In this document: piece by piece, positions 11,577 through 42,719 of the stretch
How the letters are laid out: every line of letters starts with the position of its first letter
Numbering within the stretch: the stretch's first letter is position 1
DNA from: Candidatus Jorgensenbacteria bacterium
Lineage (GTDB): Bacteria > Patescibacteriota > Minisyncoccia > UBA6257 > GWB1-50-10
DNA: 46,758 bases
Direction: 5' to 3'
Assembly (NCBI GenBank): GCA_011050075.1
Contig: DRGK01000003.1
Span: 1-46,758, forward strand
Translations under genes and position numbers: made by a program
The notes under the pieces: generated by a model
Told to the model about the DNA's origin: nothing
Databases searched by the model: none
Seen by the model: only the letters and a program-made list of their open reading frames with translations

Positions 11577-12446
11577 ATGTTTGATAGATTGCTGGAAAAG
11601 GTAGGAAAGAATAAAGTTATCGTTGTCGTCGCGGCACTAGCGATATTGGACGTGTTGGTGTATATTCACCTCCTTGCTCGCAATCCAAATATTACTACGT
11701 ACTTTCTGGATGTAGGGCAAGGAGATAGTGCACTCGTTCGATTAGAAGGTACTGTAGATGTGTTGATAGATGGTGGACCGCCAAATAATCGCGTGGTTCG
11801 CGCTCTGGGAGATGTGTTGCCGTTTATTGACCGATACATTGATGTCGTACTCATTACGCATGTACAGTCGGACCATATAGGAGGATTGGTAGAGGTGTTG
11901 CGCAGATATAATGTTGGTGTAGTGCTTTGGAACGGAGTAGGAGCGGAGACAGCAGTATTTCAGGAACTGTATCGTATCATACAAGAACGCGACATACCGT
12001 TTATTGTTGTCGGAGTGGGGGACACGCTTTGTTACCGATCTTCGTGTTTTATAGTTCTTGCTCCAAGTGAAATGCTCAAGAGCGCATCTGATATCAATAA
12101 TACATCGGTTGTGGTGCTGCTCAAAAATCAAGATATTTCATTTCTTTTTACGGGCGATATCAGTACTCGTGTTGAGCGATTATTGCGTGAACAATATTAC
12201 TTGAGTGTTGATGTGCTCAAGGTGGCACATCACGGTTCTCGGTATAGTTCCTCAGAAGCATTTCTCTCTGCCATTCGACCAAAAGTAGCGGTTATTAGTG
12301 TTGGTAGAAACAGTTATGGACACCCTACATCGGAAACGCTCAAGCGGTTGGCAAACGTAGGTGCGCAGGTACTGAGGACTGATATGCACGGTACGGTGCG
12401 TATCGTGCTGGATAAACAAACACTACATATTTCAAAAGGTAGATGA
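11577..12446 (+). CDS. ComEC-type metallo-beta-lactamase-fold domain as a separate protein
   Basis: N-terminal TM then FLDVGQGDSALVRLEG, LITHVQSDHIGGL, LFTGDIS, VLKVAHHGSRYSS. Confidence 0.9.
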   Translation: MFDRLLEKVGKNKVIVVVAALAILDVLVYIHLLARNPNITTYFLDVGQGDSALVRLEGTVDVLIDGGPPNNRVVRALGDVLPFIDRYIDVVLITHVQSDHIGGLVEVLRRYNVGVVLWNGVGAETAVFQELYRIIQERDIPFIVVGVGDTLCYRSSCFIVLAPSEMLKSASDINNTSVVVLLKNQDISFLFTGDISTRVERLLREQYYLSVDVLKVAHHGSRYSSSEAFLSAIRPKVAVISVGRNSYGHPTSETLKRLANVGAQVLRTDMHGTVRIVLDKQTLHISKGR

Positions 12447-16752: not shown

Positions 16753-17748
16753 TTGTCCAAACTATTAGAAAATCCGGTAATTTCGCCGGACATAAAAAAT
16801 GACTGGGAGTCCTGGCAAACTTTTAATCCAGGAGCTATTTTACTTGAAGATAAAGTTCATTTTATCTATCGAGCTATTGGAGAAGAGGGTATTTCGCGAT
16901 TAGGATATGCTGTTTCGGATGATGGATTTAAAATTGATGAGCGGTTATCTTATTCTGTGTATGAACATCACATTGCGCACCCGTCATTTAACTACTATTC
17001 TTTTGCTTCAGGAGGGAGTTATGGAGGAAGTGAAGATCCGCGTGTAGTTCGGGTAGGTGAAGAAGATGTTCTTTATATGATCTATACCGCCTGTGATGAG
17101 GGATTAAGAGTAGCATTAACCTCAATAAAAATTAAAGATTTCTTGGAGAAGAAATGGAAATGGAAGCCCGTGACATTAATTTCGCCACCGGGTGAAGTTC
17201 ATAAAAATTGGGTCATTTTTCCAGAAAAGATACGTGGTCAGTATGTTATTCTTCATAGTATCACACCCAAAGTAACCGTATCTTATGTTGATAATTTAGA
17301 GTTTGGTGATGGTGAGTATATTAGTAGCTTTCATGATTCACAAACACGGAAGAGTTGCTGGGACACCTGGGTAAGAGGTGTGGGGCCTCCACCTATCAAA
17401 ACGGAGAAAGGTTGGCTGTTATTTTATCATGCCATTGATAAGCGTGATCCCGGAAAATATAAAGTTGGCGCGATGCTTCTGGATATTAACGATCCAACCA
17501 AAGTACTACACAGATCGAAAGAACCCATTTTAGAACCGAAAGAGCAGTATGAAAACAATGGTTTTAAAGCAGGTATTGTGTATGCTTCGGGAGCAGTAGT
17601 AAAAGACGGGAAGATATTTGTCTATTATGGGAGTGCCGACAATTTTGTTTCTGTGGCTTATGCTGATTTGAAAAAATTTCTGGACGCACTGGAGAAAGAA
17701 ATTAAACCAGAACTTAAACGAAAGGTTATAAAAAAGAAAGTTAAATGA
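16753..17748 (+). CDS. GH130-type glycosidase/mannoside phosphorylase family protein
   Basis: NPVISPDIKNDWESWQTFNPGAI, HFIYRAIGEEGISRLGYAVSDDG, GGSEDPRVVRV, YHAIDKR...YKVGAMLLD. The TTG start is uncertain; the frame is open upstream to 16624. Confidence 0.85.
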   Translation: MSKLLENPVISPDIKNDWESWQTFNPGAILLEDKVHFIYRAIGEEGISRLGYAVSDDGFKIDERLSYSVYEHHIAHPSFNYYSFASGGSYGGSEDPRVVRVGEEDVLYMIYTACDEGLRVALTSIKIKDFLEKKWKWKPVTLISPPGEVHKNWVIFPEKIRGQYVILHSITPKVTVSYVDNLEFGDGEYISSFHDSQTRKSCWDTWVRGVGPPPIKTEKGWLLFYHAIDKRDPGKYKVGAMLLDINDPTKVLHRSKEPILEPKEQYENNGFKAGIVYASGAVVKDGKIFVYYGSADNFVSVAYADLKKFLDALEKEIKPELKRKVIKKKVK

Positions 17749-19664
17749 TAATTAAAAGATCAAACGACAATCCGATATTAAAACCAAACAGAGAGCAGTC
17801 ATGGGAAGCAGAGGCGGTTTTTAATGGGTGTCCGGTCAAAAAAGGCAATCGTATATATCTTCTTTATCGGGCATTATCTTTACCTCACTACCACACTTCT
17901 GCACAAACAAAGATGATGATTTCTGATATTGGTATTGCAGATAGTAAAGATGGAGTTCATTTTGAAAACAGGAAACGATTTATTGTTCCGGAACATTCTT
18001 GGGAAAGGTTCGGCTGTGAAGATCCAAGAGTGACCCACCTGAATGGTACATACTACATTTTTTATACGGCGCTTTCCGAGTATCCTTTTACGGCTGATGG
18101 AATTAAAGTTGGATTGGCAGTAAGCAAAAATTTAAAGAAAGTTGATGAAAAGCATCTCGTTACTCCTTTTAATGCCAAAGGAATGGCTCTTTTCCCGGAG
18201 AAAATAAACGGGAAAATGTGGGCGATACTTACGGTTCATACCGATAAACCTCCGGCAAAAATATGCCTAACTTCTTTTGATAAAGAAGAAGATATGTGGT
18301 CTGAACGTTATTGGAAGAAATGGTATAAAAATTTTGAGAAACATTCTTTACCGCTGGCACGCAATCCCGAGGATCATGTTGAGGTTGGTGCCCCGCCTAT
18401 AAAAACAAAATATGGCTGGCTCCTCATTTATTCTTATATTAGGGGTTACTTTTCTCCACGGAGACTTTTCACTGCAGAGGCGGTACTTCTTGATTTAAAG
18501 AACCCTTCTAAGATTATTGCCAGAACCGAGGCGCCGATTTTAATCCCTGAGGAATATTACGAGAGAATTGGTCTTGTACCGAATATGATTTTTCCATCGG
18601 GCGTATTAATTGAAGGGGATTGCCTCAGCCTCTATTATGGCGCTGCTGATACTACGTGCTGCTTGGCCACCATTGAACTTTCTTCGCTATTGGGTCAGAT
18701 ACTAGAGAGAGGTAAGAATTCTGCAAAACTTAAACGTGCCAAAGAGAATCCTATTATTACTCCAGAAAAAAAACATGCTTGGGAAAGCAAAGCTACGTTC
18801 AATCCGGGAGCACTATACCTTAAAGATAAGGTTCATCTTGTGTATCGTGCAATGTCCGAAAACAATACTTCAGTATTTGGTTACGCGACAAGTCAAGATG
18901 GAATTCATATTGACTATCGTCTGTCACAGCCAATCTATACTCCCCGCGAATCATTTGAGCAAAAACTTCAACCCGGGGGAAACTCAGGCTGCGAGGATCC
19001 GCGACTGACTAAAATCGGAAACAAAATCTATATGTGCTATACAGCCTTTGATGGCAAACACCCTCCCCGTGTAGCCTTAACATGGATACGTTCTAATGAT
19101 TTTTTAAATCAGCAATGGCATTGGTCAAAGCCGGTTCTCATTTCGCCCCCGGACCTGGATGATAAGGACGCGTTCATTTTTCCGGAAAAATTTAATGGAA
19201 AGTATGTGATTATACACCGAAGCGGAGATGACATTGATCTTGCTTTTAGTTCAACCTTGAATTTTAAGGGTGATACGTGGCTTGAAGAATACCGCTGGAT
19301 AATACCAAGAAAGGGATGGTGGGACAGTAAAAAAGTGGGAGCTGCCGCTCCGCCTATTAAAACTAAAGAGGGATGGGTTTTTCTTTATCACGGTGTTTCT
19401 GATAAAGGAGTTTATCGGGTGGGAGCGGTGCTTTTGAGTCTGAAAAATCCCGTTAAGATAATCGGACGTACCGATAACCCTATTTTTGAACCTGAAACTT
19501 CTTATGAGAAAGAGGGGCAAGTACCGAATGTTGTTTTTCCGTGCGGTATGGTGCTTTTGGAAGAAACCTTATTTGTATACTACGGGGGAGCTGATCAGGT
19601 AGTAGGAGTTGCTACTATTGAGATGAAAAAACTTTTGAAGGTTCTTAAGCAATGCAAGTGCTGA
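17745..19664 (+). CDS. Tandem two-domain GH130-type protein
   Basis: Two copies of the fold: NPILKPNREQSWEAEAVFNGC...CEDPRVTHL and NPIITPEKKHAWESKATFNPGALYL...GCEDPRLTKI. Confidence 0.85.
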   Translation: MIIKRSNDNPILKPNREQSWEAEAVFNGCPVKKGNRIYLLYRALSLPHYHTSAQTKMMISDIGIADSKDGVHFENRKRFIVPEHSWERFGCEDPRVTHLNGTYYIFYTALSEYPFTADGIKVGLAVSKNLKKVDEKHLVTPFNAKGMALFPEKINGKMWAILTVHTDKPPAKICLTSFDKEEDMWSERYWKKWYKNFEKHSLPLARNPEDHVEVGAPPIKTKYGWLLIYSYIRGYFSPRRLFTAEAVLLDLKNPSKIIARTEAPILIPEEYYERIGLVPNMIFPSGVLIEGDCLSLYYGAADTTCCLATIELSSLLGQILERGKNSAKLKRAKENPIITPEKKHAWESKATFNPGALYLKDKVHLVYRAMSENNTSVFGYATSQDGIHIDYRLSQPIYTPRESFEQKLQPGGNSGCEDPRLTKIGNKIYMCYTAFDGKHPPRVALTWIRSNDFLNQQWHWSKPVLISPPDLDDKDAFIFPEKFNGKYVIIHRSGDDIDLAFSSTLNFKGDTWLEEYRWIIPRKGWWDSKKVGAAAPPIKTKEGWVFLYHGVSDKGVYRVGAVLLSLKNPVKIIGRTDNPIFEPETSYEKEGQVPNVVFPCGMVLLEETLFVYYGGADQVVGVATIEMKKLLKVLKQCKC

Positions 19665-19673
19665 AAACATTGT

Positions 19674-19703
19674 AAAAAAATAGGCGAAATCGCCTATTTT
19701 TTT
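19674..19703. terminator. Bidirectional terminator
   Basis: AAAAAAATAGGCG-aaat-CGCCTATTTTTTT. Confidence 0.85.
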
Positions 19704-19748
19704 CTTGGAGAGTGTTTTCAAGCATTGAGTGCAGATGAGTGCTCGTTT
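19697..19748 (-). pseudogene. Fragment of an rpmB 3' end
   Basis: Minus-strand translation RALICTQCLKTLSKKK matches the C-terminus of the rpmB at 21510-21701. Confidence 0.85.
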
Positions 19749-19826
19749 ATCCCATGAAATTTGAAAAATAAAGAAAATGCGGTATAAAGAAGCCAGAACT
19801 TAAACAATAAAACACAGGAGGTGTGT

Positions 19827-21437
19827 ATGGAAAAGAATAAAAAGAATGCAATACTCTCGGTCTTTGATAAGACTGGTATTGTTGAATTCGCGCAGGAATT
19901 GGTGAGTCTTGACTGGAAGATATTTTCTTCAAGCGGTACTGCACGAGTGCTTCATGAAGGGGGAATTCCGGTGACAGATGTTTCTAAAATTACCGGACTC
20001 GCACCAATTCTTGATCATCGTGTTGCAACGCTGGCTCCGCAGATACACGGTGGTCTACTTGCTATGGAGAAACATTTGCAAGAGCTCAAGAAGCTGGGCT
20101 ATCCATGGATTGATCTTGTTTGCGTGGATCTCTACCCGCTTAAGGAAGAAATTTGTCGGCCCGGTGCAACACTGGAATCAGTCCTTGAAAAGACCGATAT
20201 TGGCGGCCCAACACTCCTTAGGTCGGGTGCGAAAGGTCGGCGTATTGTTGTGATAGGATCCAGTGATCGCGAGCGTGTTATAGAGTGGCTTAAAAATGGT
20301 GAGCCGAATGCGGAGGAATTCAGGAATGCATTAGCGGCTAAGGCAGAAGCAATTGCCGCTGATTATTCTCTGGAATCGGCGCGTTTCCGTGGAAATGGTA
20401 ACTATGACGGTATAATTGGTCATAGGGTGGTGTCTTGCAAATACGGAGAGAATCCTTGGCAGACACCAGCCGCATTGTTCGCACAAGAAACGAATGATAG
20501 TCTCGCACTTCAAAACTTCAAATTGGTAGAAGGAAGTGATCCGAGCTACATAAACTGGTGTGACATTGACCGGCTACTTCAAACTATCACTCATATCGCT
20601 GCGGTATTTGAACAAAATCACAATAACATCCCGTTCATTGCTGTAGGAGCCAAACATGGGAATGCATGCGGTGCTTCAGTTGCTACAGATGCGGGTGATG
20701 CGCTTCGTGGCATGATTGATGGTGATCCCTTGGCGTTATTTGGTGGGTTGGTGATGACGAATTTTCCAATCAGTGGGCAAGAAGCGAAGCTTCTACGAGA
20801 ATGGAACACATCGGATGGAACAAAACGAATTCTTGATGGTGTTCTTGCTCCGTCGTTCAGTAAAGAAGCAAGACTGAACCTAAGCAGAAAAGGTGGTAAG
20901 TGCCGCCTACTGGAGAACTCAGCCCTTGAAAACCTTGGTATGGATTCACTGGACGTTGCACCGCGATTTCGTTATGTGCGCGGTGGATTTCTCCGTCAAC
21001 CAAACTACACTTATGTGCTTGATCTCAAAGATCCTGATCTTGAGATTGTTGGACATACGTGTTCAGAATCTCAAAAGACTGATTTACTTCTCGCTTGTGC
21101 AGTTGGTAGCACAAGTAATTCTAATACGATTACGCTCGTGAAGAACGGAGCGGTAATAGGGAACGGAGTCGGTCAAAAAGATCGTGTCGGTGCGGCAACA
21201 CTCGCTATAGCTGGTGCTAAGCGAAGCGGGCATGACATCAGAGGTGCAGTCGCTTACTCAGATAGTTTCTTTCCATTCCCGGACGGACCACAGATTCTCA
21301 TTGAGGCCGGAGTGCAAGTCATTTTTACTTCAAAGGGATCCGTGAAAGACGAAGCTACTCGAGAAGTTTGTAGGGAAGCAGAGATATCTTTGTATTTCCT
21401 TCCAGACTCAAGGTGTCGAGGTTTTTTCGGACACTAA
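19827..21437 (+). CDS. purH: Bifunctional AICAR transformylase/IMP cyclohydrolase
   Basis: SVFDKTGIVEFAQEL, SSSGTARVLHEGGIPVTDVSKITG, LDHRVATLAPQIHGGLLA, DIGGPTLLRSGAKG, KHGNACGA, DSFFPFPDGP. SD aggaggtg precedes the ATG at 19827. Confidence 0.93.
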   Translation: MEKNKKNAILSVFDKTGIVEFAQELVSLDWKIFSSSGTARVLHEGGIPVTDVSKITGLAPILDHRVATLAPQIHGGLLAMEKHLQELKKLGYPWIDLVCVDLYPLKEEICRPGATLESVLEKTDIGGPTLLRSGAKGRRIVVIGSSDRERVIEWLKNGEPNAEEFRNALAAKAEAIAADYSLESARFRGNGNYDGIIGHRVVSCKYGENPWQTPAALFAQETNDSLALQNFKLVEGSDPSYINWCDIDRLLQTITHIAAVFEQNHNNIPFIAVGAKHGNACGASVATDAGDALRGMIDGDPLALFGGLVMTNFPISGQEAKLLREWNTSDGTKRILDGVLAPSFSKEARLNLSRKGGKCRLLENSALENLGMDSLDVAPRFRYVRGGFLRQPNYTYVLDLKDPDLEIVGHTCSESQKTDLLLACAVGSTSNSNTITLVKNGAVIGNGVGQKDRVGAATLAIAGAKRSGHDIRGAVAYSDSFFPFPDGPQILIEAGVQVIFTSKGSVKDEATREVCREAEISLYFLPDSRCRGFFGH

Positions 21438-21455
21438 CGTTAGCTAACTATCCTT

Positions 21456-21493
21456 AGGCACTGTTGGTTGAATACCAACAGTGCCTTTTTTAT
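21456..21493 (+). terminator. Rho-independent terminator of purH
   Basis: GGCACTGTTGGT-tgaat-ACCAACAGTGCC-TTTTTTAT. Confidence 0.92.
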
Positions 21494-21509
21494 ATTAAAA
21501 ATACGGGTG

Positions 21510-21701
21510 TTACTTTTTTTTCTTGGAGAGTGTTTTTAGACACTGCGTGCAGATGAGTGCTCGTTTGCCCGAAGGAAGAATTGTTCTTTGCAGGTTTGCC
21601 TTGCGTTTGTAGTGCTTGTTCACAGGGTTGTAATGTCCACGCAATAGTTTGCGTTTGCCGCCCATCGTATGTGATTTTTCACAGAGTTCGCATTTGCGCA
21701 T
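21510..21701 (-). CDS. rpmB: 50S ribosomal protein L28
   Basis: MRKCELCEKSHTMGGKRKLLRGHYNPVNKHYKRKANLQ... Confidence 0.9.
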   Translation of the reverse strand: MRKCELCEKSHTMGGKRKLLRGHYNPVNKHYKRKANLQRTILPSGKRALICTQCLKTLSKKKK

Positions 21702-26283: not shown

Positions 26284-26460
26284 ATGTCCACACGCAAAAC
26301 AGGAAAACGAAATATTAGGAAGCTCACCAAGCTCGGCGGCCACTCAATCGGCCTCACCATCCCTATTTCCATTGTCCGCAAACTCAAATGGCGCAATAAA
26401 CAAAAGGTAACGGTCAAACAAGTCGGGAAGCGGGTGATAATAGAGGATTGGGAGAAGTAA
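26284..26460 (+). CDS. AbrB/MazE-like small DNA-binding protein (58 aa)
   Basis: MSTRKTGKRNIRKLTKLGGHSIGLTIPISIVRKLKWRNKQKVTVKQVGKRVIIEDWEK; shorter than the ORF-track cutoff. Confidence 0.7.
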   Translation: MSTRKTGKRNIRKLTKLGGHSIGLTIPISIVRKLKWRNKQKVTVKQVGKRVIIEDWEK

Positions 26461-26462
26461 CT

Positions 26463-27134
26463 ATGCCAAAAATAAAGGATTTACCGAAAGTTGAACGACC
26501 GCGGGAAAAGCTTATTGCCAAAGGTGCCGAGAACCTCAAGGATTCGGATCTTTTGGCCATTCTGCTTCGAACAGGAAAAACCGGGAAAAATGTTATCGAA
26601 ATTGCTTCTCAAATTTTAGCCAAGCATTCCAAGAAACGGATTCTACAGATGACCTATCAAGACATGCTGAAAATAAGCGGCATTGACTCCGCCAAGGCCA
26701 CAACACTTCTTGCCGCTTTTGAGCTTTCAAAACGTGCGTTGGAAGTTAATGACACCAATTTGACGACTATTTCTACAGCTAAAGATGTTGTGGCTCAATT
26801 GACCGAGCTGCGCAATAGTAAAAAAGAGCATTTCGTTGCTCTGTATCTCAATGCCAGAGATCAACTAGTACACAAAGAAACGATTTCAATAGGAACCTTG
26901 AATGCCAATCTGGTTCATCCTCGGGAAATTTTCGAACCAGCTCTTAAATATTTGGCAGCTAACATCACTGTTGCGCATAATCATCCCTCCGGAGATCCAA
27001 AGCCGTCAGAAGACGATCTGGAGATTACGAAGAGATTGGTGAAAGCCGGCAAAATGATGGGCATTGAACTTTTGGATCATGTCATTGTTTCGAAAAATAG
27101 CCACTTTAGTTTTAAAGAGAAACAGTTAATTTAA
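26463..27134 (+). CDS. radC: RadC-family JAB-domain protein
   Basis: RPREKLIAKGAENLKDSDLLAILLRTG; VAHNHPSGDPKPSEDDLEITKRL. Confidence 0.93.
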   Translation: MPKIKDLPKVERPREKLIAKGAENLKDSDLLAILLRTGKTGKNVIEIASQILAKHSKKRILQMTYQDMLKISGIDSAKATTLLAAFELSKRALEVNDTNLTTISTAKDVVAQLTELRNSKKEHFVALYLNARDQLVHKETISIGTLNANLVHPREIFEPALKYLAANITVAHNHPSGDPKPSEDDLEITKRLVKAGKMMGIELLDHVIVSKNSHFSFKEKQLI

Positions 27135-27139
27135 ATAAC

Positions 27140-28885
27140 ATGAAGGAGCTAAGAAAACATGATTTTAATGATCCTATATCGATCAGAGAGACACTAAACT
27201 CTATTAGTACACGGCGGTATATTTTGCCTGCAATTCAGCGCGAGTTTATTTGGAGCACCGATCAAATCATCTGTTTATTCGAATCTATTATGGATAGACT
27301 CATAATAGGTTCGTTTTTGTTTTGGACAACAAATGATGATACGCTACAAAATTTTCATTTTTATCATTTTATTGAAAATTATCATAAAAAAGACAATAGG
27401 CATAATCAGCGCGCTGATGTCACTGGAGAAAAAAATTTAGTAGCGGTTCTTGATGGTCAACAACGATTAACCGCCTTGTATATTGGTTTAAAAGGGTCAT
27501 ACGCCGAAAAAATCAAACATAAGCGACGAAATAACCCGGGTGCTTATCCTGTCAAAAAGTTATACCTTAACTTATTGGACGAAGGAGCAAAGGAATCTTC
27601 TTACGAGTTCGCCTTCTTAGGGCAGCGAGAGATGACCGACAACGCCTCTCAAAAAGCTTATTGGTTTCGAGTTGGAGATATTTTAAACTTTGATAATAAG
27701 GAAGATATAAAACAATATTTGATTGAAAGAAACCTTTTTGATAATAAGTTTGCTCGTCAGGCACTGCAACGATTATGGGAAGCCGTTAACGAAGAAAAAT
27801 ACATTCATTATTTTTTGGAATCGTCCGATGATATTGAAAGGGTCCTTAAATTATTTATACGAGTAAATAGCGCTGGCACGGATCTGACTTATTCTGATAT
27901 GTTGCTTTCCGTAGCCACGGCGCAATGGAAAGGAGATGCTCGTGAAGAAATAACGCAATTCGTTGATAGTATAAATGATATTAAAGATGGATTTGATTTT
28001 AAAAAAGATTTTGTTTTAAAAAGCGCTGCAACATTAGCGGATCTCGACGTGGCGTTCCGAGTTAAAAACTTTAATAGAGAAAATGTAGAAAAAATAGAAA
28101 GCGAGTGGAGTGATATAAAATACTCTGTAGAGTTGGCAATACGTCTTATTGCTAGCTTTGGGTACTGTGAGGAAAATCTTCCTTCTGCTAACGCAGTCAT
28201 TCCAATAGCATACTACTTGAAGAAAATAGGGCATCCCGAAAGATTTATAGACTCAGGACATTTTGAAGAAGAACGGAAGCGCATTAAAAAATGGTTCACC
28301 CTTACTCTCTTAAAGAGGGTATTTAGCGGCCAGTCCGATGCTACACTTAGCTCTATTAGAAAAATATTGCAAGAAAGCGAAGAAACTTTTCCTCTTGAGA
28401 AGATAATTGAGGAGTTCAGGGGTACTAATAAAGGTCTCGAAATTACTGGGCAGGAGTTGGAGAGGATTCTGGAAACAAAGTATGGAAATGCCCTATCTTT
28501 TTCGATTCTTTCTTTAGTTTATCCGTATCTTGACTTAAGAAATAATAAATTTCACAAAGATCATATTTTTCCAAAAAAGTTTTTTAAAAAAGGAGATTTA
28601 TGGAAACTGAGATTTTCTGACGAAGATGTTGAGTTTTATATGGAAAATTATGACAAAATTGCTAACCTACAATTATTGCTTGGACCTGTGAATAACGAAA
28701 AAGGTGGTAAAGATTTTCAGGAGTGGCTTGAGGATTATAATTCTGGCGACCAAAAGAAAAAAGAGCAATTTAAGCGCGATCATCTCATTCCGCTAGATAC
28801 AGATTTAAGTTTCGAAAACTTTAGAGATTTTTTTGGAAAGCGGAGAAAACTTGTTTTTGAAAAAATATTCTCCATTCTTAATTAA
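27140..28885 (+). CDS. DUF262 protein with C-terminal HNH-type (DUF1524-like) region, GmrSD-like
   Basis: IQREFIWSTDQIICLFESIMDRLIIGSFLFW; AVLDGQQRLTALYIGL; KFHKDHIFPKKFF...IANLQLLLGPVNNEKGGKDFQEWL. Confidence 0.85.
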   Translation: MKELRKHDFNDPISIRETLNSISTRRYILPAIQREFIWSTDQIICLFESIMDRLIIGSFLFWTTNDDTLQNFHFYHFIENYHKKDNRHNQRADVTGEKNLVAVLDGQQRLTALYIGLKGSYAEKIKHKRRNNPGAYPVKKLYLNLLDEGAKESSYEFAFLGQREMTDNASQKAYWFRVGDILNFDNKEDIKQYLIERNLFDNKFARQALQRLWEAVNEEKYIHYFLESSDDIERVLKLFIRVNSAGTDLTYSDMLLSVATAQWKGDAREEITQFVDSINDIKDGFDFKKDFVLKSAATLADLDVAFRVKNFNRENVEKIESEWSDIKYSVELAIRLIASFGYCEENLPSANAVIPIAYYLKKIGHPERFIDSGHFEEERKRIKKWFTLTLLKRVFSGQSDATLSSIRKILQESEETFPLEKIIEEFRGTNKGLEITGQELERILETKYGNALSFSILSLVYPYLDLRNNKFHKDHIFPKKFFKKGDLWKLRFSDEDVEFYMENYDKIANLQLLLGPVNNEKGGKDFQEWLEDYNSGDQKKKEQFKRDHLIPLDTDLSFENFRDFFGKRRKLVFEKIFSILN

Positions 28886-28895
28886 GCCAAAAGTC

Positions 28896-30446
28896 ATGAG
28901 TGCTAATATAAAAAATTTAGAAAATAGATTGTGGGAGGCGGCGGATCATATGCGCGCCAATTCTCCGTTGCGTCTTAATGAATTCGCTGAGCCGGTTTTG
29001 GGTTTGATTTTTCTCAAATTTGCAGGCGTAAAACATTCGAAAACCGAAAAAGAGTTAGCCGAAAAGAGAAAAAATAAAGCTAAAAAACTTGGTGGTGCTT
29101 CGGTTTCGCGTGAGCGGCCAGTTTCTTCCGCGGATTATCATGCGCGCGGCACACTCTTTATTCCCGAAAAAGCTCGGTTTTCATATCTTATAGAACTACC
29201 GGAGGGAACGGATATGGGGAGAGCTGTAAATGATGCAATGAAAGGAATCGAAGCCGAAAATAAAGAGCTTGCCGGCATTCTCCCTAAGACATTTCAAAAG
29301 CTGGACAATCGATCCATCATTACGCTTCTCAAAAACTTTAATCAGATTCCAGACGACATTGAAGGGGACGCGTTCGGTAAAATTTATGAATACTTCCTTG
29401 GTAAGTTTGCGCTTGCGGATGGCACTCGCGGAGGCGAGTTTTTCACACCGACAAGCATTGTTAAACTTATCGTGGAAATTATCGAGCCGTATCAAGGCAG
29501 GATTTATGACCCTGCCTGCGGTTCCGGCGGAATGTTTGTGCAGTCGCACGAATTCGTAAAACGGCATCTTGAAAATGGGCAAAAGACAAGAGCTTCGCGT
29601 GAGATCGCTATTTATGGACAAGAAAAAACAGATCAAACTGTTCGCATCGCAAAAATGAACCTTGCAATCCACGGTCTTTCAGGAGATATCCGCGAAGGGA
29701 ATACCTATTATGAGGATAGCCATAAGAGTATTGGAAAATTTGACTTCACTATGGCTAATCCTCCTTTTAATGTGAAAGGAATTGATAAGGAACGTATTAA
29801 GGACGATCCACGGTTTTCGTACGGTATACCCAGAGCGGATAACGGTAATTATCTTTGGATTCAAATCTTTTTAAATTCGCTCAATGAAAAAGGGCGCACA
29901 GGATTTGTTATGTCAAACGCGGCTGGCGACGCCGGTCATAGTGAAAAAGAAATTCGCCAAAAGCTCATTGAAGATGGTTTTGTAGATGTAATGATCGCAG
30001 TGGGTCCGAATATGTTTTATAATGTTGCGCTCTCGGTAACGCTTTGGTTTTTGGATAGGGGTAAGAAGAGGACAAACCGTAAGAACAAGATTCTTTTTAT
30101 TGACGCACGCAATATTTATACGCAGATTGACCGCGCCCATCGCGACTGGACCGACGAGCAGATAGAGCAGATTACAAGCATTGTGAGGAGCTACCGTAGT
30201 GAGAACGGAAAGAAGTACAAAGACATAAAAGGCCTATGCAAGGTAGCGACAATTGATGAAGTAAAGAAGTCCGGCTATTCACTCAACCCCGGCCGATATA
30301 TTGGCGTTGCTGACAATGGAAATGGAGACGACGGTAATTTTGGAGAGAAAGTTAAAAATCTTCACAGCGAATTTAAAGATCTGACTGACGAGGCGCATAA
30401 ATTAGAAAAGAAGGTTTTTGAGAATTTAAAGAAGTTGGATTTTTAA
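28896..30446 (+). CDS. hsdM: Type I restriction-modification DNA methyltransferase
   Basis: GGEFFTPTSIVKLIVEII; YDPACGSGGMFVQS; ANPPFN. Confidence 0.96.
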   Translation: MSANIKNLENRLWEAADHMRANSPLRLNEFAEPVLGLIFLKFAGVKHSKTEKELAEKRKNKAKKLGGASVSRERPVSSADYHARGTLFIPEKARFSYLIELPEGTDMGRAVNDAMKGIEAENKELAGILPKTFQKLDNRSIITLLKNFNQIPDDIEGDAFGKIYEYFLGKFALADGTRGGEFFTPTSIVKLIVEIIEPYQGRIYDPACGSGGMFVQSHEFVKRHLENGQKTRASREIAIYGQEKTDQTVRIAKMNLAIHGLSGDIREGNTYYEDSHKSIGKFDFTMANPPFNVKGIDKERIKDDPRFSYGIPRADNGNYLWIQIFLNSLNEKGRTGFVMSNAAGDAGHSEKEIRQKLIEDGFVDVMIAVGPNMFYNVALSVTLWFLDRGKKRTNRKNKILFIDARNIYTQIDRAHRDWTDEQIEQITSIVRSYRSENGKKYKDIKGLCKVATIDEVKKSGYSLNPGRYIGVADNGNGDDGNFGEKVKNLHSEFKDLTDEAHKLEKKVFENLKKLDF

Positions 30447-30448
30447 TT

Positions 30449-30892
30449 ATGGATTATCTAAAGCGACAATTTAAATTATGGAAATTTGTCCAAATCTTAA
30501 AGGAAATTTTGAATGATTTAACCCTGGCAACTTATAAACTGCAGCGCCGGTCTTTTTATACGAGAATTAAGGATTATTATTTTTCTAGAGAAAATCCTCT
30601 TGAAGATAAAGAAAATAAAATGACTTTCCCTGTCGCCACAAAGCAATTTAAAGACGCCATTCCTAATGGACATAACCTGGACTCAATGAAACGCAACCTC
30701 GACTTTTTACAAAGAGAATTTGGAGATTATTTTGATCAACTTGTACAAGAGGGTGTGTTAGTGTCGGATAATGACTATCCACCGAGTTATTCCTTGAATC
30801 ATAATTCTCCAAAAGTGTATTGGGTTTTAGGCGTAATGAGTACAGCTGCTTTAATCTGGGGTATTGTGAAAATTTTTGTAAGTACAGAATAA
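30449..30892 (+). CDS. Hypothetical tail-anchored membrane protein embedded between hsdM and hsdS
   Basis: 147 aa, C-terminal TM VYWVLGVMSTAALIWGIVKIFV; TAATG overlap with hsdS. Confidence 0.7.
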   Translation: MDYLKRQFKLWKFVQILKEILNDLTLATYKLQRRSFYTRIKDYYFSRENPLEDKENKMTFPVATKQFKDAIPNGHNLDSMKRNLDFLQREFGDYFDQLVQEGVLVSDNDYPPSYSLNHNSPKVYWVLGVMSTAALIWGIVKIFVSTE

Positions 30893-32136
30893 TGCCAAAA
30901 ACAAAATCACAACCGGAAAATTGGCGGAGGGTAAGGTTGGGAGAAGTTATTTTTATCAACCCTGATTCTATTGGTAAAGATTTTTCTTTCCAACAGATTT
31001 TGTATACAGATATATCCTCCGTGGGGGAAGGAACTGCAGAGGATCCGGTAGAGTTACATCTTTCCGAAGCCCCTAGCCGTGCTCGTAGATTGATTAAGAG
31101 TGAAGATACGATTTTATCAACAGTTCGTCCAAATCGTCGCTCATTTCTATACATTAAAAATCCCGAGAAAAATCGTTTAGTTTCTACTGGTTTTGCCGTG
31201 CTTCGAGCTAGTGATCAGATTGATTCAAGGTTTTTGTATTATTTCATTTCGAATCAATCATTTACGGACTACTTATCATTACACGCAAAAGGAGCCACTT
31301 ATCCGGCTGTTGACGCAGATATAATTACTGGCGCTGATATTTCTCTTCCGGAATTAAATGAACAAAAAAAGATTAGCTATGTTCTCTCAACCTACGACAA
31401 TCTTATAGAAAATAACACGAAGCGGATTAAGATTTTGGAAAAAATGGCGCAGGCGATGTATAAGGAGTGGTTTGTATACTTCCGTTTTCCCGGCCATGAA
31501 AAAGTAAAAATGGTTGATAGCAAAACGGATTTAGGCGAGATTCCGGAAGGGTGGGAAGTGAAAAAGCTACCGGAAGTTTTTGATTTTCTTGAGGGTCCGG
31601 GTATTAGAAATTGGCAATATACCCCTACCGGCTGTCCATTTATAAATATTCGGCTTATTCAAAATAATGACATAAATATAAACTCAGCAAACTTTATTTC
31701 CGAGGAAGAGGCGAATGGGAAATACAAACACTTTCAACTGCAAGAACGAGATATGGTTGTATCAACATCGGGAACACTTGGCCGATCTGCGATTGTCAGA
31801 AAAGAACACTTGCCGCTTATACTCAATACATCGGTGATAAGATTTAGGCCGATAGATGGGCGGAGCTATGCTTTTATGTACCAATTTTTAAACGCAGATT
31901 ATTTTCAAAACAAGATATTAAGTATGGCTTCTGGAAGCGCGCAGCCAAATTTTGGCCCTATGCATTTAAAACAGATCGAATTACTTGTACCAAGTCGGAA
32001 TGTATTGAATGCATTTAATAATTTAGTTGGTCCAATATATGGCGGAATGATAGTTTATTTTGCGGAGAATCAAAGATTACGCCAAGCCCGAGATTTGCTT
32101 TTGCCAAAATTAGTAGGTGGAGAAATTAGAATATAG
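30892..32136 (+). CDS. hsdS: Type I restriction specificity subunit
   Basis: LPELNEQKKISYVLSTYDNLIENNTKRIKILEKMAQAMYKEWFVYFRFPG between two target-recognition domains; GEIPEGWEVKKLPEV. Confidence 0.92.
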   Translation: MPKTKSQPENWRRVRLGEVIFINPDSIGKDFSFQQILYTDISSVGEGTAEDPVELHLSEAPSRARRLIKSEDTILSTVRPNRRSFLYIKNPEKNRLVSTGFAVLRASDQIDSRFLYYFISNQSFTDYLSLHAKGATYPAVDADIITGADISLPELNEQKKISYVLSTYDNLIENNTKRIKILEKMAQAMYKEWFVYFRFPGHEKVKMVDSKTDLGEIPEGWEVKKLPEVFDFLEGPGIRNWQYTPTGCPFINIRLIQNNDININSANFISEEEANGKYKHFQLQERDMVVSTSGTLGRSAIVRKEHLPLILNTSVIRFRPIDGRSYAFMYQFLNADYFQNKILSMASGSAQPNFGPMHLKQIELLVPSRNVLNAFNNLVGPIYGGMIVYFAENQRLRQARDLLLPKLVGGEIRI

Positions 32137-32141
32137 TTTTT

Positions 32142-33494
32142 ATGGATAACGAATATTATATCAAATATATCGAGTCTAACTTATACAAAGTAAGTGCATT
32201 TATTGCCGGTATTGTTTTTATCCTCGTGTTGTCTGCTAGTATTGATTCGTGGTTAGAGAAGTTAATTATAAATACACAAATAAGATTTTCTATATACGGT
32301 GCGACTCTTCTTATTTGGACCTGTTTTTGGCTATTTTATAAATATAGATTGCCAAGAAATAAAAAAGGTAAGGTTGGTATTGTTGTGGCTATCCACGCAG
32401 AGACAAACAACGAAGAAATCAGGCTAAAAAATGATTTTATTTCAAAACTAAAAGAGAATATTAATAAAGAGAAATGCGGCGAAGTTATAAATATTATCGT
32501 TCTGAAAAATCATTTTTCGGAGAAACTCGACGATATAGGCAAGGGTTTAAGATTACACAAAAATATAAAGGGACATTTTTATGTTTATGGCCAAGTGAAA
32601 AGAAGAAGTGACGGCGAGAAGAAATACTTTCTAAAACTAGAGGGGTTGGTTGCACATCGCCCTATTAATATCCGCACCCAAGACTTTTTGAAGAAGGAGT
32701 TCGTAAGCATCCTACCGAAACAGATATCGTTTTTTGAAACTTTTGAGTTTAAGGGTTTTGAATTTACTGCTGATATTGTTTATCTTGCGGCACGATACAT
32801 CACAGGAATCGCTGCTTATTTATCGGGGGATCCGATTTTAGCTCATGAATTTCATTCTAATCTTCAGGGAGAATTTAATAAATTCCAGCCACTCCCTCCC
32901 CACTTACAGGTGATAAAGAATAAAATACCCGCACTATTATCTGACGAAGAATTAATTATTGCCCGGCATTATTATTTCAGAAATGAAGCTGGAAACTTAA
33001 AAGAATGGCTTGATAAATCTTTAAAATCTAATCCGAATAATTACGGTGGATGGGTGCTCAAGGCAATAGTAGATTTTCTGCCGACGCTTGACAACAATCC
33101 GGACACTGCTCTGGAAAGCATCAAGAGGGCTCGGAGGTATGCCAGCGCTACTCATGAATGGAGATATAGCCGAGCGTTTTTGTATTTCTGGGTAGAAAAT
33201 TATATAGAAGCTCTTCGTGATTGCGAGAATCTTAAAAACAAATCTTATCATAGTGAAGACATTACTATTAAAGAGGTGGAAGATTTTAATCTACAATTGC
33301 TAAAAGAAAATCCTGGTAAAATCCAGTTATATTTTTGGCTTGGTTACATTAACCTTATCAAAAAGAGAAATTTACCACTGGCTTATAAATACTTTAGTAA
33401 ATTTGAAGAAAAAGCAGATCAAACAATGGATTTACTAAAACAAAAGTCAAACGTTTATCTCTCGCAGATAAAAAGTGAGATGAAATTAAAGTAA
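32142..33494 (+). CDS. Two-TM protein with cytoplasmic alpha/beta region and TPR-like C-terminus, between hsdS and hsdR
   Basis: Two N-terminal TM helices; C-terminal helical repeats (GGWVLKAIVDFLPTLDNNPDTALESIKRARRYA..., IQLYFWLGYINLIKKRNLPLAYKYFSKF). Confidence 0.65.
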   Translation: MDNEYYIKYIESNLYKVSAFIAGIVFILVLSASIDSWLEKLIINTQIRFSIYGATLLIWTCFWLFYKYRLPRNKKGKVGIVVAIHAETNNEEIRLKNDFISKLKENINKEKCGEVINIIVLKNHFSEKLDDIGKGLRLHKNIKGHFYVYGQVKRRSDGEKKYFLKLEGLVAHRPINIRTQDFLKKEFVSILPKQISFFETFEFKGFEFTADIVYLAARYITGIAAYLSGDPILAHEFHSNLQGEFNKFQPLPPHLQVIKNKIPALLSDEELIIARHYYFRNEAGNLKEWLDKSLKSNPNNYGGWVLKAIVDFLPTLDNNPDTALESIKRARRYASATHEWRYSRAFLYFWVENYIEALRDCENLKNKSYHSEDITIKEVEDFNLQLLKENPGKIQLYFWLGYINLIKKRNLPLAYKYFSKFEEKADQTMDLLKQKSNVYLSQIKSEMKLK

Positions 33495-33501
33495 GATTTT
33501 C

Positions 33502-36500
33502 ATGAACCCATTTTCGGAAGACAAGTTAATTGAGCAAACTGCCGTCAAGATTTTTGGCGGGCTTTGGGGCGCCGAAAATTTTGCCAATGCATATTCAGGC
33601 GAAATGGACGTAGAATTTGGGCGTGAGAATCCGGGAGAAGTGGTGCTGATGAATTATCTCAAAATTGCCTTGGTGAAACTCAATCCTGATGTATCTACCG
33701 AAGCGTTGAATCTTGCGATTGACGAGATTATCAAAGACCGCTCGGCAATGAGTATGGTGAATGCAAACCACGAGGTATGGCAACTGCTTAAAGATGGCGT
33801 AAAGGTTGAGACGGAAAATGAAAAAGGTGAACAGCAAACTGAGACGGTAAAAGTTATTGATTTTGAAAATCCGAAAGAAAATCACTTTATGCTTGTTTCC
33901 CAGTTTTGGATAACAGGCGAGCTGCATAAACGCCGCCCCGATCTGATCGGATTTGTGAATGGTATCCCGCTTGTATTGGTGGAACTGAAGGCATCACACA
34001 AAAATCTTCGTAATGCCTACAGCCAGAATATCCGGGATTACAAAGACACGATTCCACAGCTCTTTTGGTATAACGCCTTCATTATTATTTCCAACGGCAT
34101 TGAAAGCAAAGTTGGTACTATTACTAGCGCGTACGAACATTTCAACGAGTGGAAGAAAATAGATGATGAAAAAGAAGTTGGAAAAGTGAGCTTGGAAACG
34201 GTAATTAAAGGCACCTGCGAGCCGACGCGGCTATTGGATATTGTTGAAAATTTTATTCTTTTTGATGACTCCCGCGGCGAGCGCACTAAAGCGATTTCTC
34301 GATATTTTCAATATTTTGGAGTGAACCGCGCCTTTGAACAAGTGCAAAATCGAGATAAAAATAAGGGCCGGCTTGGTGTTTTTTGGCACACACAAGGATC
34401 CGGCAAATCATATTCAATGGTCTTTTTGTCTCAAAAAGTGTTCCGCAAATTAACCGGGAACTTCACTTTTGTCGTGGTTACAGACCGCAAAGAGCTTGAT
34501 AGGCAGATATACAAGACATTCGCCGCTTGTGGCGCAGTGTATGAGGACGAAGTGCATGCCGATTCTGTAGAGCATCTTCAGCAGTTGCTTAAAGAAGATC
34601 ACCGCCATGTTTTTACGCTTATCCATAAATTTGCCGAGCCGAAAGAGCTATCTAACAGAAATAATGTGATTGTAATGGCTGACGAAGCGCATCGTACGCA
34701 ATATGACCGCATGGCGTCCAATATGCGCATTGCCCTACCAAAAGCGTCATTTATCGGTTTTACCGGTACGCCCTTAATGGTTGGTGGAGAAGAGAAAACT
34801 CGAGAAGCTTTCGGTGATTATATCTCAACATACAACTTCGCACAGTCAGTAAAGGACGGAGCTACAGTTCCACTTTATTACGAAAATCGTGTTCCAAAAC
34901 TTAAGAACGTCAATCCTGATATTCAGAAAGATTTGGAGCGGGTAATGAATTTTTACGATCTTGCGCCGGAAGAAGAGGAAAAACTGGAACAAGAATTTTC
35001 AACTTTTTACCACCTGATCACTCGCGAAGATCGCTTGAATAAAGTCGCGGAGGATATCGTCACACACTTCACTGCTCGGGGGTATAACGGAAAAGCAATG
35101 GTTGTTTCTATTGATAAGAAAACGACCATTCGAATGCATGCCAAAGTCAAAGAACAAATGCAACGCCATTTGGCAAAGTTGAACATCACTCTATCTAAAG
35201 CAGCAGACGAACATGAGAAAGAAAAGATTCAACAAACAATAGAGCAATACGAAGGAATTGACATGGCAGTAGTGGTAAGCCAAGGCCAGAATGAAATCGC
35301 CGACATGGAAGAGTTTGAAATTGATATGCGGCCGCTTAGAGCTCGTATGCAAAATGAAGATTTGGAAACGAAATTTAAAGACCCAGACAGCAACCTGCGC
35401 ATTGTCTTTGTTTGCGCAATGTGGATTACCGGTTTTGATGTTCTTAATCTTTCAACGTTATATCTTGATAAACCGCTTAAGAACCACACGCTCATGCAGA
35501 CCATCGCCCGCGCCAATCGAGTATATCCGGGCAAAACAAACGGCCTTATTGTTGACTACATCGGCGTATTTAGAAACATTCAAAGAGCTCTCGCGATTTA
35601 CGCTACTCCGGAAAGCGGCGCGTCAATTGACGACATTATTAAAGAAAAAGAAGAACTTGTTGAGTTGTTGGTTTCAACTACCACACAGACGAGAGGATTC
35701 TTAAAAAAGCTTGATCTTGATGTTGATGAATTACTGAAAGCAAAGGACACAGAAAAGATACGCCTTGTTGATGTATTTACGAATCGTATTTTGCAGGATG
35801 AACAGACGAAAATGAGATATCTAGATCTTGCATCAGATGCTTATCAACTTTATAAAGCCGTACTACCCGCGCCCAAAGCGGAAGATTATTACCAAGAAGT
35901 TACGGCTTTTAAAGTTATTGCCTCTCGCATCAAAGAGGTTATTGAGGAAGAGGCCGATGTTAGTCAAGTGAAAAAAGACCTTGAAGACTTACTTGATCGT
36001 TCTATCAAGGCGGGTGAATTTGTCATTAAAGCGCCAAAACTAAAAGATCTAAGTCAGATTGATTTTGAGGCGTTGCGAAAGTTTTTTGATGATACGGATA
36101 ATAAAAATATTGCCGCTGAAAGTTTAAGCGCCGAACTTGAAGAAAAAATCAAAGAAATGGCGCGGAAAAATAAACTGCGCAAACATTTTCTTGATCGCCT
36201 TAATTCATTGATTCGAGAATATAATTCAGGGTCTCGCGACCTCGACTCATTTTTTGACGAGCTTCTCGTTCTAGCAAAAGAATTAAGCGAGGAGGACGTA
36301 CGAGCGATAAAAGAAAATCTCACGGAGGAGGAGTTGGCGATCTTTGACCTTCTCGTGAAAGAAAATCTTAACCCTAATGAAGTGGAGAAAGTGAAAAAAG
36401 TCGCGCATGAGCTGATAACCAAACTGAAAAAGGAAAAGTTTGTCTTGGATTGGAAGCGCAAAGAAGAAACACGCGCTGATGTGAAAATAACAATTCGTGA

Positions 36501-36627
36501 TACATTGTACGACAACTTACCCGAGCCGGCATACTCTAAAAAGGACTGCGAAGACCGAACTCAAAAGGTTTATTTCCATATCTACGACAGTTATGTGGAT
36601 GCGGAAATAAATGTTTATACGCGATAA
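33502..36627 (+). CDS. hsdR: Type I restriction endonuclease subunit R
   Basis: VNGIPLVLVELKAS; HTQGSGKSYSMVF; VMADEAHRTQYD; FIGFTGTPL; MQTIARANRVYPGKTNGLIVDYIG. Confidence 0.96.
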   Translation: MNPFSEDKLIEQTAVKIFGGLWGAENFANAYSGEMDVEFGRENPGEVVLMNYLKIALVKLNPDVSTEALNLAIDEIIKDRSAMSMVNANHEVWQLLKDGVKVETENEKGEQQTETVKVIDFENPKENHFMLVSQFWITGELHKRRPDLIGFVNGIPLVLVELKASHKNLRNAYSQNIRDYKDTIPQLFWYNAFIIISNGIESKVGTITSAYEHFNEWKKIDDEKEVGKVSLETVIKGTCEPTRLLDIVENFILFDDSRGERTKAISRYFQYFGVNRAFEQVQNRDKNKGRLGVFWHTQGSGKSYSMVFLSQKVFRKLTGNFTFVVVTDRKELDRQIYKTFAACGAVYEDEVHADSVEHLQQLLKEDHRHVFTLIHKFAEPKELSNRNNVIVMADEAHRTQYDRMASNMRIALPKASFIGFTGTPLMVGGEEKTREAFGDYISTYNFAQSVKDGATVPLYYENRVPKLKNVNPDIQKDLERVMNFYDLAPEEEEKLEQEFSTFYHLITREDRLNKVAEDIVTHFTARGYNGKAMVVSIDKKTTIRMHAKVKEQMQRHLAKLNITLSKAADEHEKEKIQQTIEQYEGIDMAVVVSQGQNEIADMEEFEIDMRPLRARMQNEDLETKFKDPDSNLRIVFVCAMWITGFDVLNLSTLYLDKPLKNHTLMQTIARANRVYPGKTNGLIVDYIGVFRNIQRALAIYATPESGASIDDIIKEKEELVELLVSTTTQTRGFLKKLDLDVDELLKAKDTEKIRLVDVFTNRILQDEQTKMRYLDLASDAYQLYKAVLPAPKAEDYYQEVTAFKVIASRIKEVIEEEADVSQVKKDLEDLLDRSIKAGEFVIKAPKLKDLSQIDFEALRKFFDDTDNKNIAAESLSAELEEKIKEMARKNKLRKHFLDRLNSLIREYNSGSRDLDSFFDELLVLAKELSEEDVRAIKENLTEEELAIFDLLVKENLNPNEVEKVKKVAHELITKLKKEKFVLDWKRKEETRADVKITIRDTLYDNLPEPAYSKKDCEDRTQKVYFHIYDSYVDAEINVYTR

Positions 36628-36787
36628 CACCCCGGAGGAGATCAAAATTATTGAAGGTGAGAGAAATTGATAAAGAAGGAATGAAAAAGTACTCCGTGGT
36701 GGTCTAAAAATAGGCTCTAACGTAGTCCAGCTGCTGCCATCGAAAATAATCTTTACAGTCTTAATTCGACGAGATACACTGAACTGT

Positions 36788-37444
36788 ATGAAGAGGAAAT
36801 TGCTCATATATCTCTTGTTTTTCTCTGCTATAACACTAGTCGGAATTGTTTTATTCAGACTCTTTCAGCTTGAGCAGATAATATTTATTAAAGGATTTAC
36901 GCTTGGCGAAACAATTACCGTTGTAATCTTAATCATTGGTCTGTTGATAGGAATGGAAGAAGCAGAAAATGCTTTAAGGCCGTATGTTGATGTTGGTGTT
37001 ATATTCCACAAAGGAGTCAAGAAAACTCGCTTTCAATTTCTCCAAAAATCTAAGATACCAGCTCTTGTTTGGTTAGATATAAGATTGAGAATAAATGGGC
37101 GTGATATAGATTCAAATGAAAGAAAATGGTGGTTGGAAGATAAGCGATTATGGGGTGTAAAACCATGGGTTGTTCGATTTGATAATCGTGCAACATCTGC
37201 TTATGCTCTAAAAAAGGTAACAAACGCTATTATGGAAACAGAAAGCGGTGAGGCTGATTTATTTATTAAAATTTCCGTTGCCCCCATTTTTAGAAAAAAG
37301 GCGCGTTTTTATTACGAAGAAAAACATTATGAATTTAATAAAGACAAAGACAATCCTAGGTGGATAGAGACTAGTTGGGGTATAGAAGATAGATTACATC
37401 CTGGATTTAAGTTTTCAAAAGAAGACAGTTCTCACGATGAGTAG
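36788..37444 (+). CDS. Two-TM hypothetical protein
   Basis: N-terminal TM pair (LLIYLLFFSAITLVGIVLF, TITVVILIIGLLIGM); no recognised motif. Confidence 0.6.
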   Translation: MKRKLLIYLLFFSAITLVGIVLFRLFQLEQIIFIKGFTLGETITVVILIIGLLIGMEEAENALRPYVDVGVIFHKGVKKTRFQFLQKSKIPALVWLDIRLRINGRDIDSNERKWWLEDKRLWGVKPWVVRFDNRATSAYALKKVTNAIMETESGEADLFIKISVAPIFRKKARFYYEEKHYEFNKDKDNPRWIETSWGIEDRLHPGFKFSKEDSSHDE

Positions 37445-37493
37445 AAAATATACAAGTTCACTTGTACTCGACGACTTATTTGATAAAATAAAA

Positions 37494-37571
37494 CCAACAT
37501 CGTCCCATAGCCCCAGAAAAATAAACGGCTCAATCCCATTGAGCCGTTTATTTTCGCATTGTTGTGATATT
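37494..37571. repeat. 78-bp direct repeat, copy 1, containing a bidirectional terminator hairpin
   Basis: CCAACATCGTCCCATAGCCCCAGaAAAATAAACGGCTCAAtCCCATTGAGCCGTTTATTTTCGCATTGTTGTGATATT; 76/78 identical to 42642-42719. Confidence 0.95.
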
Positions 37572-37605
37572 ATTGGGATATAGAGACAAAATCGTCTGGC
37601 AACTA

Positions 37606-37629
37606 GTTCAAATCCCTGTCCGGCAGCCA
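37606..37629 (+). other. Possible tRNA 3'-end remnant (T-arm, acceptor, CCA)
   Basis: GTTCAAATCCCTGTCCGGCAGCCA resembles a tRNA 3' end with G73 and encoded CCA; the 5' T-stem strand and the rest of the tRNA are absent. Confidence 0.45.
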
Positions 37630-37663
37630 GTTTGATATAGGTTAGGATTCCGAAGAGTATATT

Positions 37664-38275
37664 ATGAAAAACTTTTTAAACACAAAAACAATCATAGGAA
37701 GCCTAGTAGTAGGTCTCATAGGAAGTGCGTTATGGGAAAATCTATTTAGAGACCTCCTAAATCTTGGAGGAAAAACGTTGTTAACTATATCTACTCTTGG
37801 ACTCGATAAGTACAAGGACAATATATATATGAGTATTGCCCAAGGTTTTTATGAGCGAGTGAGTATCCAAATACTGTCCCTAGGGTTAGGGGTACTTTTT
37901 GGAATTGCACTTGGGACTATAATAATCACATTCAAGATTAATAAAAAAGATGAGAAATCCAAGGATTTAAAAATAAAGAAATGGTTAAGAGGTCACAAAC
38001 GTTTTGTTAAAATCGGATTTCTTATCTATACGATTTTTGTAATGGGTATCACAGTTCTTAGTCTTGCTGAAATCACTTATATAAACAAATCAATAGCTTA
38101 TTATAGACAACTTGAGAGTATTGCGGCTCCATATATTACGTCCGACCAGGAAAAGATATTCAACTCTAGATTTTCCCAGATTAAGAATCGAGAAGGTTAT
38201 ACTAAATTGATCAATGAACTTTCTGTGATTATTGACGAAGCAGGACAGACGGTGGTGCCAGCATTCATTTTCTAA
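37664..38275 (+). CDS. Multi-TM hypothetical protein upstream of the Gabija-like pair
   Basis: About three TM segments; no recognised catalytic motif. Confidence 0.65.
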   Translation: MKNFLNTKTIIGSLVVGLIGSALWENLFRDLLNLGGKTLLTISTLGLDKYKDNIYMSIAQGFYERVSIQILSLGLGVLFGIALGTIIITFKINKKDEKSKDLKIKKWLRGHKRFVKIGFLIYTIFVMGITVLSLAEITYINKSIAYYRQLESIAAPYITSDQEKIFNSRFSQIKNREGYTKLINELSVIIDEAGQTVVPAFIF

Positions 38276-38450
38276 CAGTTCAAATGAATCAAGGAACCGC
38301 TTACGACCCTTTGATTAGAGACATAGAATGGTTCCAACATCATCCCATAAGCCCAATCAGCTTGAGATGGGTTCAGAGTCCGAGAAGCATAATTTTGGTC
38401 CTTGGCACTTGGTGCTCGCATCTTCCTCGTGGCAAGTGTAATATAAATCC

Positions 38451-42641: not shown

Positions 42642-42719
42642 CCAACATCGTCCCATAGCCCCAGCAAAATAAACGGCTCAACCCCATTGAGCCGTTTATT
42701 TTCGCATTGTTGTGATATT
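42642..42719. repeat. 78-bp direct repeat, copy 2, containing a bidirectional terminator hairpin
   Basis: 76/78 identical to 37494-37571; AAAATAAACGGCTCAA-cccca-TTGAGCCGTTTATTTT. Confidence 0.95.

Follow-up and report, generated by a model that had tools for sequence, protein, structure and literature searches.

The locus described here lies in a patescibacterium whose genome of 526 kb is represented by 18 contigs and is ~91% complete. The window, by which we mean the whole stretch of 46,758 nucleotides that was analysed, is contig C3 of this genome. Relatives of the organism are likewise Patescibacteria, and members of its order have been deposited as Candidatus Liptonbacteria. Within the window, a single gene, purH, is found between two copies of a 52-bp repeat of the 3' end of rpmB, the insert measuring 1,766 bp from one copy to the other (Table 1). 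A preliminary description of this DNA had drawn attention to the repeat, which is real and in the same orientation at both positions, although the copy within rpmB begins at 21515 and not at 21512, a difference of 3 bp.

Table 1. Features of the purH–rpmB locus, in positions of the window
Feature	Position	Strand	Basis and remarks
GH130-family gene, converging on the putative original rpmB end	17745..19664	+	Pfam Glyco_hydro_130, NCBIfam beta-1,2-mannobiose phosphorylase; not behind rpmB in relatives
Palindromic bidirectional terminator	19674..19703	.	13-pair stem and T tract, z=-5.9
Probable displaced remnant of the rpmB 3' end (17 codons; one extra A shifts the TAG stop out of frame)	19697..19748	-	47/52 identical to 21515-21566, five synonymous differences
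purH 5' flank: putative promoter TTGAAA (19761-19766)/TATAAA (19783-19788); Shine-Dalgarno AGGAGG (19816-19821)	19749..19826	+	Promoter by eye
purH, bifunctional AICAR formyltransferase/IMP cyclohydrolase-like, 536 aa	19827..21437	+	PF01808 and PF02142 above cut-off; TIGR00355; tree
Terminator between convergent purH and rpmB	21456..21486	.	13-pair stem, z about -5 on either strand
Intact rpmB (bL28, 63 aa)	21510..21701	-	Full-length match to relatives, 53-69% identity; L28 profile
52-bp repeat copy within intact rpmB	21515..21566	-	Sequence comparison

The purH unit is compact and self-contained, with its own Shine-Dalgarno sequence and a terminator that is common to purH and the convergent rpmB; a consensus promoter scan makes no call at the TTGAAA/TATAAA elements upstream of the gene. 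Both domains of the product, MGS-like (PF02142) and AICARFT (PF01808), score above cut-off, the score of 314 bits against the NCBIfam equivalog TIGR00355 is below the cut-off of 528, and a tree places the protein within a branch of PurH proteins from Patescibacteria. The GC content of the gene, 0.466, is not outlying. The preliminary description had placed a purH with its own terminator between the two copies and a further terminator at 19674-19703; the former is strong, the latter is palindromic and able to act both ways, and both stand. The neighbouring rpmB encodes a divergent bL28, which matches the L28 Pfam profile over its full length but weakly (17.6 bits against a cut-off of 27; 10 of 14 relatives match), and for which the best match among solved structures in the PDB is also L28. 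The gene has been left whole, its 63-aa product aligning over the entire length with those of relatives.

The repeat duplicates, without gaps, the last 17 rpmB codons before the final Lys, and both copies read KRALICTQCLKTLSKKK on the - strand. The match is not a chance one, E being 1e-15 when the two 2-kb flanks of purH are compared and 2e-14 across the whole genome. All five differences between the copies (ACT/ACG, CAA/CAG, TGC/TGT, TTG/CTA) are synonymous, leaving no amino-acid difference, an outcome that arises in ~0.04-0.14% of trials when five substitutions are placed at random. This argues that the copies diverged as working genes, and thus supports their interpretation, already put forward in the preliminary description, as two functional rpmB alleles as opposed to a decayed duplication of the target. 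A point to be added to that description is that the four altered codons directly follow one another, between identical stretches of 20 and 22 bp (p ~0.006-0.007), and such clustering could reflect one complex mutation instead of accumulated divergence. Identity between the two copies is 90%, whereas across the other genomes of the family the best rpmB match at the DNA level, over the full length, reaches ~70%, which points to a close relative, probably of the same genus, as the donor of the incoming rpmB end.

The question of which copy is native can be approached from their surroundings. The fragment continues uninterrupted into the hairpin at 19674-19703 (AAGAAAAAAATAGGCGATTTCGCCTATTTTTTT on the rpmB strand), whose left arm on that strand shares sequence with what would be the former C-terminal Lys codons and the TAG stop. 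In several relatives (L148-L150), rpmB ends AAAAAATAG directly on a GC-rich hairpin, and it is because of this resemblance that fragment, TAG and hairpin together look like an old rpmB end with its terminator; we infer that the hairpin is the native rpmB terminator. A run of seven A residues in the fragment shifts the TAG one base out of frame, a change that only a copy without function could tolerate. AAGTAA is the end of the intact rpmB, which uses the terminator of purH too. Since the fragment is both frameshifted and joined to a terminator of the native type, and the intact gene relies on that of purH, the fragment is probably the displaced resident end of rpmB, the present 3' end having come with purH.

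The distribution of purH among relatives is patchy. Full-length PurH is encoded by 2 of the 42 family genomes, the window genome and one designated G013, at different loci, and by 10 of 244 in the order; three further family genomes contain the N-terminal part only. The two family proteins are sisters in the tree (100/99). fusA places the window genome with G009, in which purH is absent. A gain of purH by this species is likely, and more so than many losses, which favours the original suggestion that the gene was acquired; however, the 66% identity between the two PurH proteins does not fall below the 51-64% that several further proteins common to the two genomes show, making it possible that purH is an old family gene that moved.

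What lies behind rpmB in the family is tRNA-Pro with a varying set of genes, and then NDK-AspS or metG; in G009, the nearest genome by fusA, the order is metG, tRNA-Gly, two other genes and then rpmB. The site is thus a variable gene slot within the family. In the window, two GH130 genes (16753-19664) lie between tRNA-Gly and rpmB, and these are missing here in relatives. The comparison with empty sites was made at the level of the family, whose genomes have no purH at this place and have differing neighbours. Neither purH nor a repeat or rpmB fragment lies behind rpmB at any of 40 relatives' rpmB loci, and purH in place without the fragment was likewise not encountered there. As a consequence, an insertion of purH at this place, at the 3' end of rpmB, is well supported, and the homologous 3' end of the incoming DNA would have kept rpmB intact, much as the preliminary description had proposed. 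The same 40 loci led us to reject the idea that the fragment is a recurrent attachment site.

The surroundings of purH elsewhere were also considered. Flanking repeats (E<1e-5) occur at 5 of 71 PurH loci and at 5 of 439 control genes, and a family of purH cassettes was rejected, as there is no common unit: the five repeats comprise a copy of sequence upstream of tRNA-Thr (G013), a palindromic repeat (L076), an 80-bp repeat that, by eye, adjoins an apparent insertion-sequence remnant (L113), and two that are like terminators (L104). In G013 (L034 1367-1420 and 3163-3216), promoter-like sequence directly upstream of tRNA-Thr(tgt) recurs directly upstream of purH with 79% identity over 53 bp; this 54-bp repeat looks like promoter sequence and was not counted as the same kind of event. 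The palindrome of L076, from a Taylorbacterium, is perfect, 31-35 nt long and present in three copies around purH (7820, 9643 and 10141). Repeated leader or promoter-like elements are found upstream of purB and purH in L098 (4199-4293 and 5708-5810) and at three places around purH in L104 (4180, 5456 and 10528), and these are possibly a regulatory element common to purine genes.

A search for integrases near rpmB revealed a complete-looking prophage of ~32 kb in G013 (C1:7399-39676, including rpmG; L041, L242, L243), which encodes portal, capsid, terminase, ParB and a tyrosine integrase. On one side of it is an intact rpmG (bL33, C1:7399-7569); on the other, at ~39620, the 3' end of rpmG recurs as a 57-bp copy, beyond which is tRNA-Trp. 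The integrase gene adjoins this far repeat. The repeat corresponds to the last 18 rpmG codons and the stop, the displaced end keeps a stop, and 7 of the 8 differences within codons are synonymous. In the window genome the equivalent site is empty, with the order tRNA-Thr, tRNA-Thr, rpmG, tRNA-Trp. The purH of G013 is outside the prophage, ~0.5 kb upstream of rpmG. Judged from its sequence, the prophage is a 3'-end-restoring insertion with its integrase present, in the same family as the window genome. It shares with the purH unit a 3'-end repeat of similar length, mostly synonymous divergence and an old end on the far side, but differs in its 32 kb and its integrase, portal, capsid and terminase genes. 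The preliminary description had likened the event at rpmB to tRNA-targeted integration transferred to a ribosomal-protein gene. Events of this type do exist in the family, as the prophage illustrates, but an integrase origin for the insertion at rpmB is only one of the possibilities, no integrase being found near purH and no recurrence at rpmB.

Wider searches gave little else. The purH unit itself contains no integrase, as had been noted from the outset, and one Xer-like tyrosine recombinase is the sole one visible in the window genome. Among matches in 99 genomes, none places an integrase within ~15 kb of rpmB, and elsewhere in the order, integrase loci showed no additional repeats of gene 3' ends that we could recognise. 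A search for other genes flanked by such repeats, as proposed earlier, showed no other coding 3'-end scar in the 355 of 526 kb of the window genome that were scanned (about two thirds). Viral contigs carry no recognisable rpmB or window purH; rpmG, intended as a positive control, is also missing from them, so that this absence is weak evidence.

The window contains other repeats. Direct repeats of 78 bp (37494-37571 and 42642-42719), 97% identical and including a terminator hairpin, flank a Gabija pair (GajA 38451-40433, GajB 40430-42328) and a 203-aa open reading frame, and weaker copies of them are present on contigs C7 and C17. Beside the left repeat, a 22-bp stretch (37606-37627) matches the 3' part of tRNA-Gln(ctg) on contig C4 (95%) and looks like a scar of tRNA-targeted integration. 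The Gabija genes form part of a defence island (26448-42328) that also encodes RadC, a HEC-05-like protein and type I restriction-modification genes. At the end of the contig is an exact 135-bp repeat (1-135 and 552-686), which is perhaps an effect of assembly or a protein repeat.

How, then, might purH have arrived? We consider it probable that a single recombination within the 3' end of rpmB brought in purH-bearing DNA, circular or one-ended, from a close relative, and displaced the resident end. In essence, the incoming molecule would have carried purH and its terminator beside an rpmB 3' end; one crossover within that end would join it to the resident rpmB, so that the gene stays whole, and the resident last 52 bp, still on their native terminator, would be moved to the far side of purH, where the scar would begin to decay. 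The duplication, its purely synonymous divergence, the intact rpmB, the frameshifted scar joined to a terminator and the relatives that have neither purH nor scar are seen directly in the sequence, and from them we infer the circular form of the donor and the convergence of its purH on rpmB. In E. coli, a single crossover by a circular molecule yields duplication rather than deletion (PMC3240628). Such Campbell-type integration of small circles resembles the purH locus in having a homologous segment duplicated on both sides of the insert; the duplications described there are 109-950 bp (PMC3240628), whereas that at rpmB is shorter, at 52 bp, and its circular donor is putative. Against a single crossover, a homology of 52 bp at 90% identity, broken into stretches of just 20 and 22 identical bp, is a short one for RecA. 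We also found no donor that has purH next to rpmB, and the differences clustered in four codons could be a single complex mutation. Site-specific integration and a RecA single crossover with a circle give the same anatomy; we weigh RecA and a tyrosine integrase, either lost or acting in trans, about equally, leaning slightly toward RecA.

Integrative elements of the CIME type are flanked by att sites and have no integrase. The purH unit is like them in having cargo between att-like repeats and no integrase, and unlike them in that no cognate element or integrase was identified for it. It may, more tentatively, be a cargo-only element or remnant inserted by a tyrosine integrase at the rpmB 3' end, with the integrase gone or supplied in trans and the two copies of the repeat being attachment sites. 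Direct repeats that match the 3' end of an intact target gene flank the insert, as would then be expected, and the geometry is that of the rpmG prophage with its integrase beside the far repeat. Tyrosine-integrase ICEs at rplL, rpsI and rpmG of Streptococcus normally have repeats of 12-54 bp, some of them exactly the 3' end of the gene (PMC4701971), and the 52 bp at rpmB fall within this range; here, too, the target is a ribosomal-protein gene that remains intact. The Streptococcus elements differ from the purH unit, which has no integrase or other mobility gene, a single metabolic gene as its insert, rpmB as its target and no recurrence that we could find. The lone Xer-like recombinase of the genome, the failure of rpmB to be reused among the 40 loci, the lack of nearby integrases in the 99 genomes and the viral contigs noted above all weigh against an integrase, as does the repeat itself, whose differences are central and which shows no clear core of identity between inverted arms. 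A broader idea is at present a long shot. It holds that single metabolic genes travel between Patescibacteria as cassettes that lack an integrase, that such cassettes go in at the 3' ends of small ribosomal-protein genes, and that the recombinases come in trans from prophages with targets of the same class (rpmG in G013, rpmB here).

The remaining explanations are less attractive than a single recombination with DNA of a close relative. Homology-facilitated illegitimate recombination of linear transforming DNA, with a homologous crossover in rpmB and illegitimate joining on the purH side, requires homology at just one end; DNA uptake is believed to occur in Patescibacteria (PMC12455944), and a competence-type gene, ComEC/Rec2-like, is present at 11577-12446. 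We nevertheless regard it as unlikely, because it predicts deletion of recipient DNA (PMC3240628) where duplication is seen, and duplication would call for a second copy of the chromosome. It is similarly improbable that insertion was accompanied by a local duplication of the rpmB 3' end, and that the working copy acquired the five synonymous changes afterwards or rpmB was subsequently replaced by another allele. An identical duplication needs no donor homology, and the clustered changes might be one event, but all changes other than one extra A would have had to fall in the functional gene, and to be synonymous there, with the dead fragment staying as it was. Least credible of all is an assembly artefact in which a metagenome-assembled genome merges two strains: 18 contigs and ~91% completeness suggest metagenome assembly, and two rpmB alleles could mean two strains, but the fragment-purH junction has no common sequence by which an assembler could bridge it, and the fragment has a frameshift of its own.

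In host-dependent bacteria with half-megabase genomes, the acquisition of biosynthetic genes has mostly been inferred from trees. The scar at purH is legible enough to indicate the probable direction of the event, the closeness of the donor and the way in which an essential gene may have been spared. Together with the prophage at rpmG, it suggests that DNA enters genomes of this family at the 3' ends of ribosomal-protein genes, and 3'-end repeats with synonymous differences could be used to detect further insertions of this kind.
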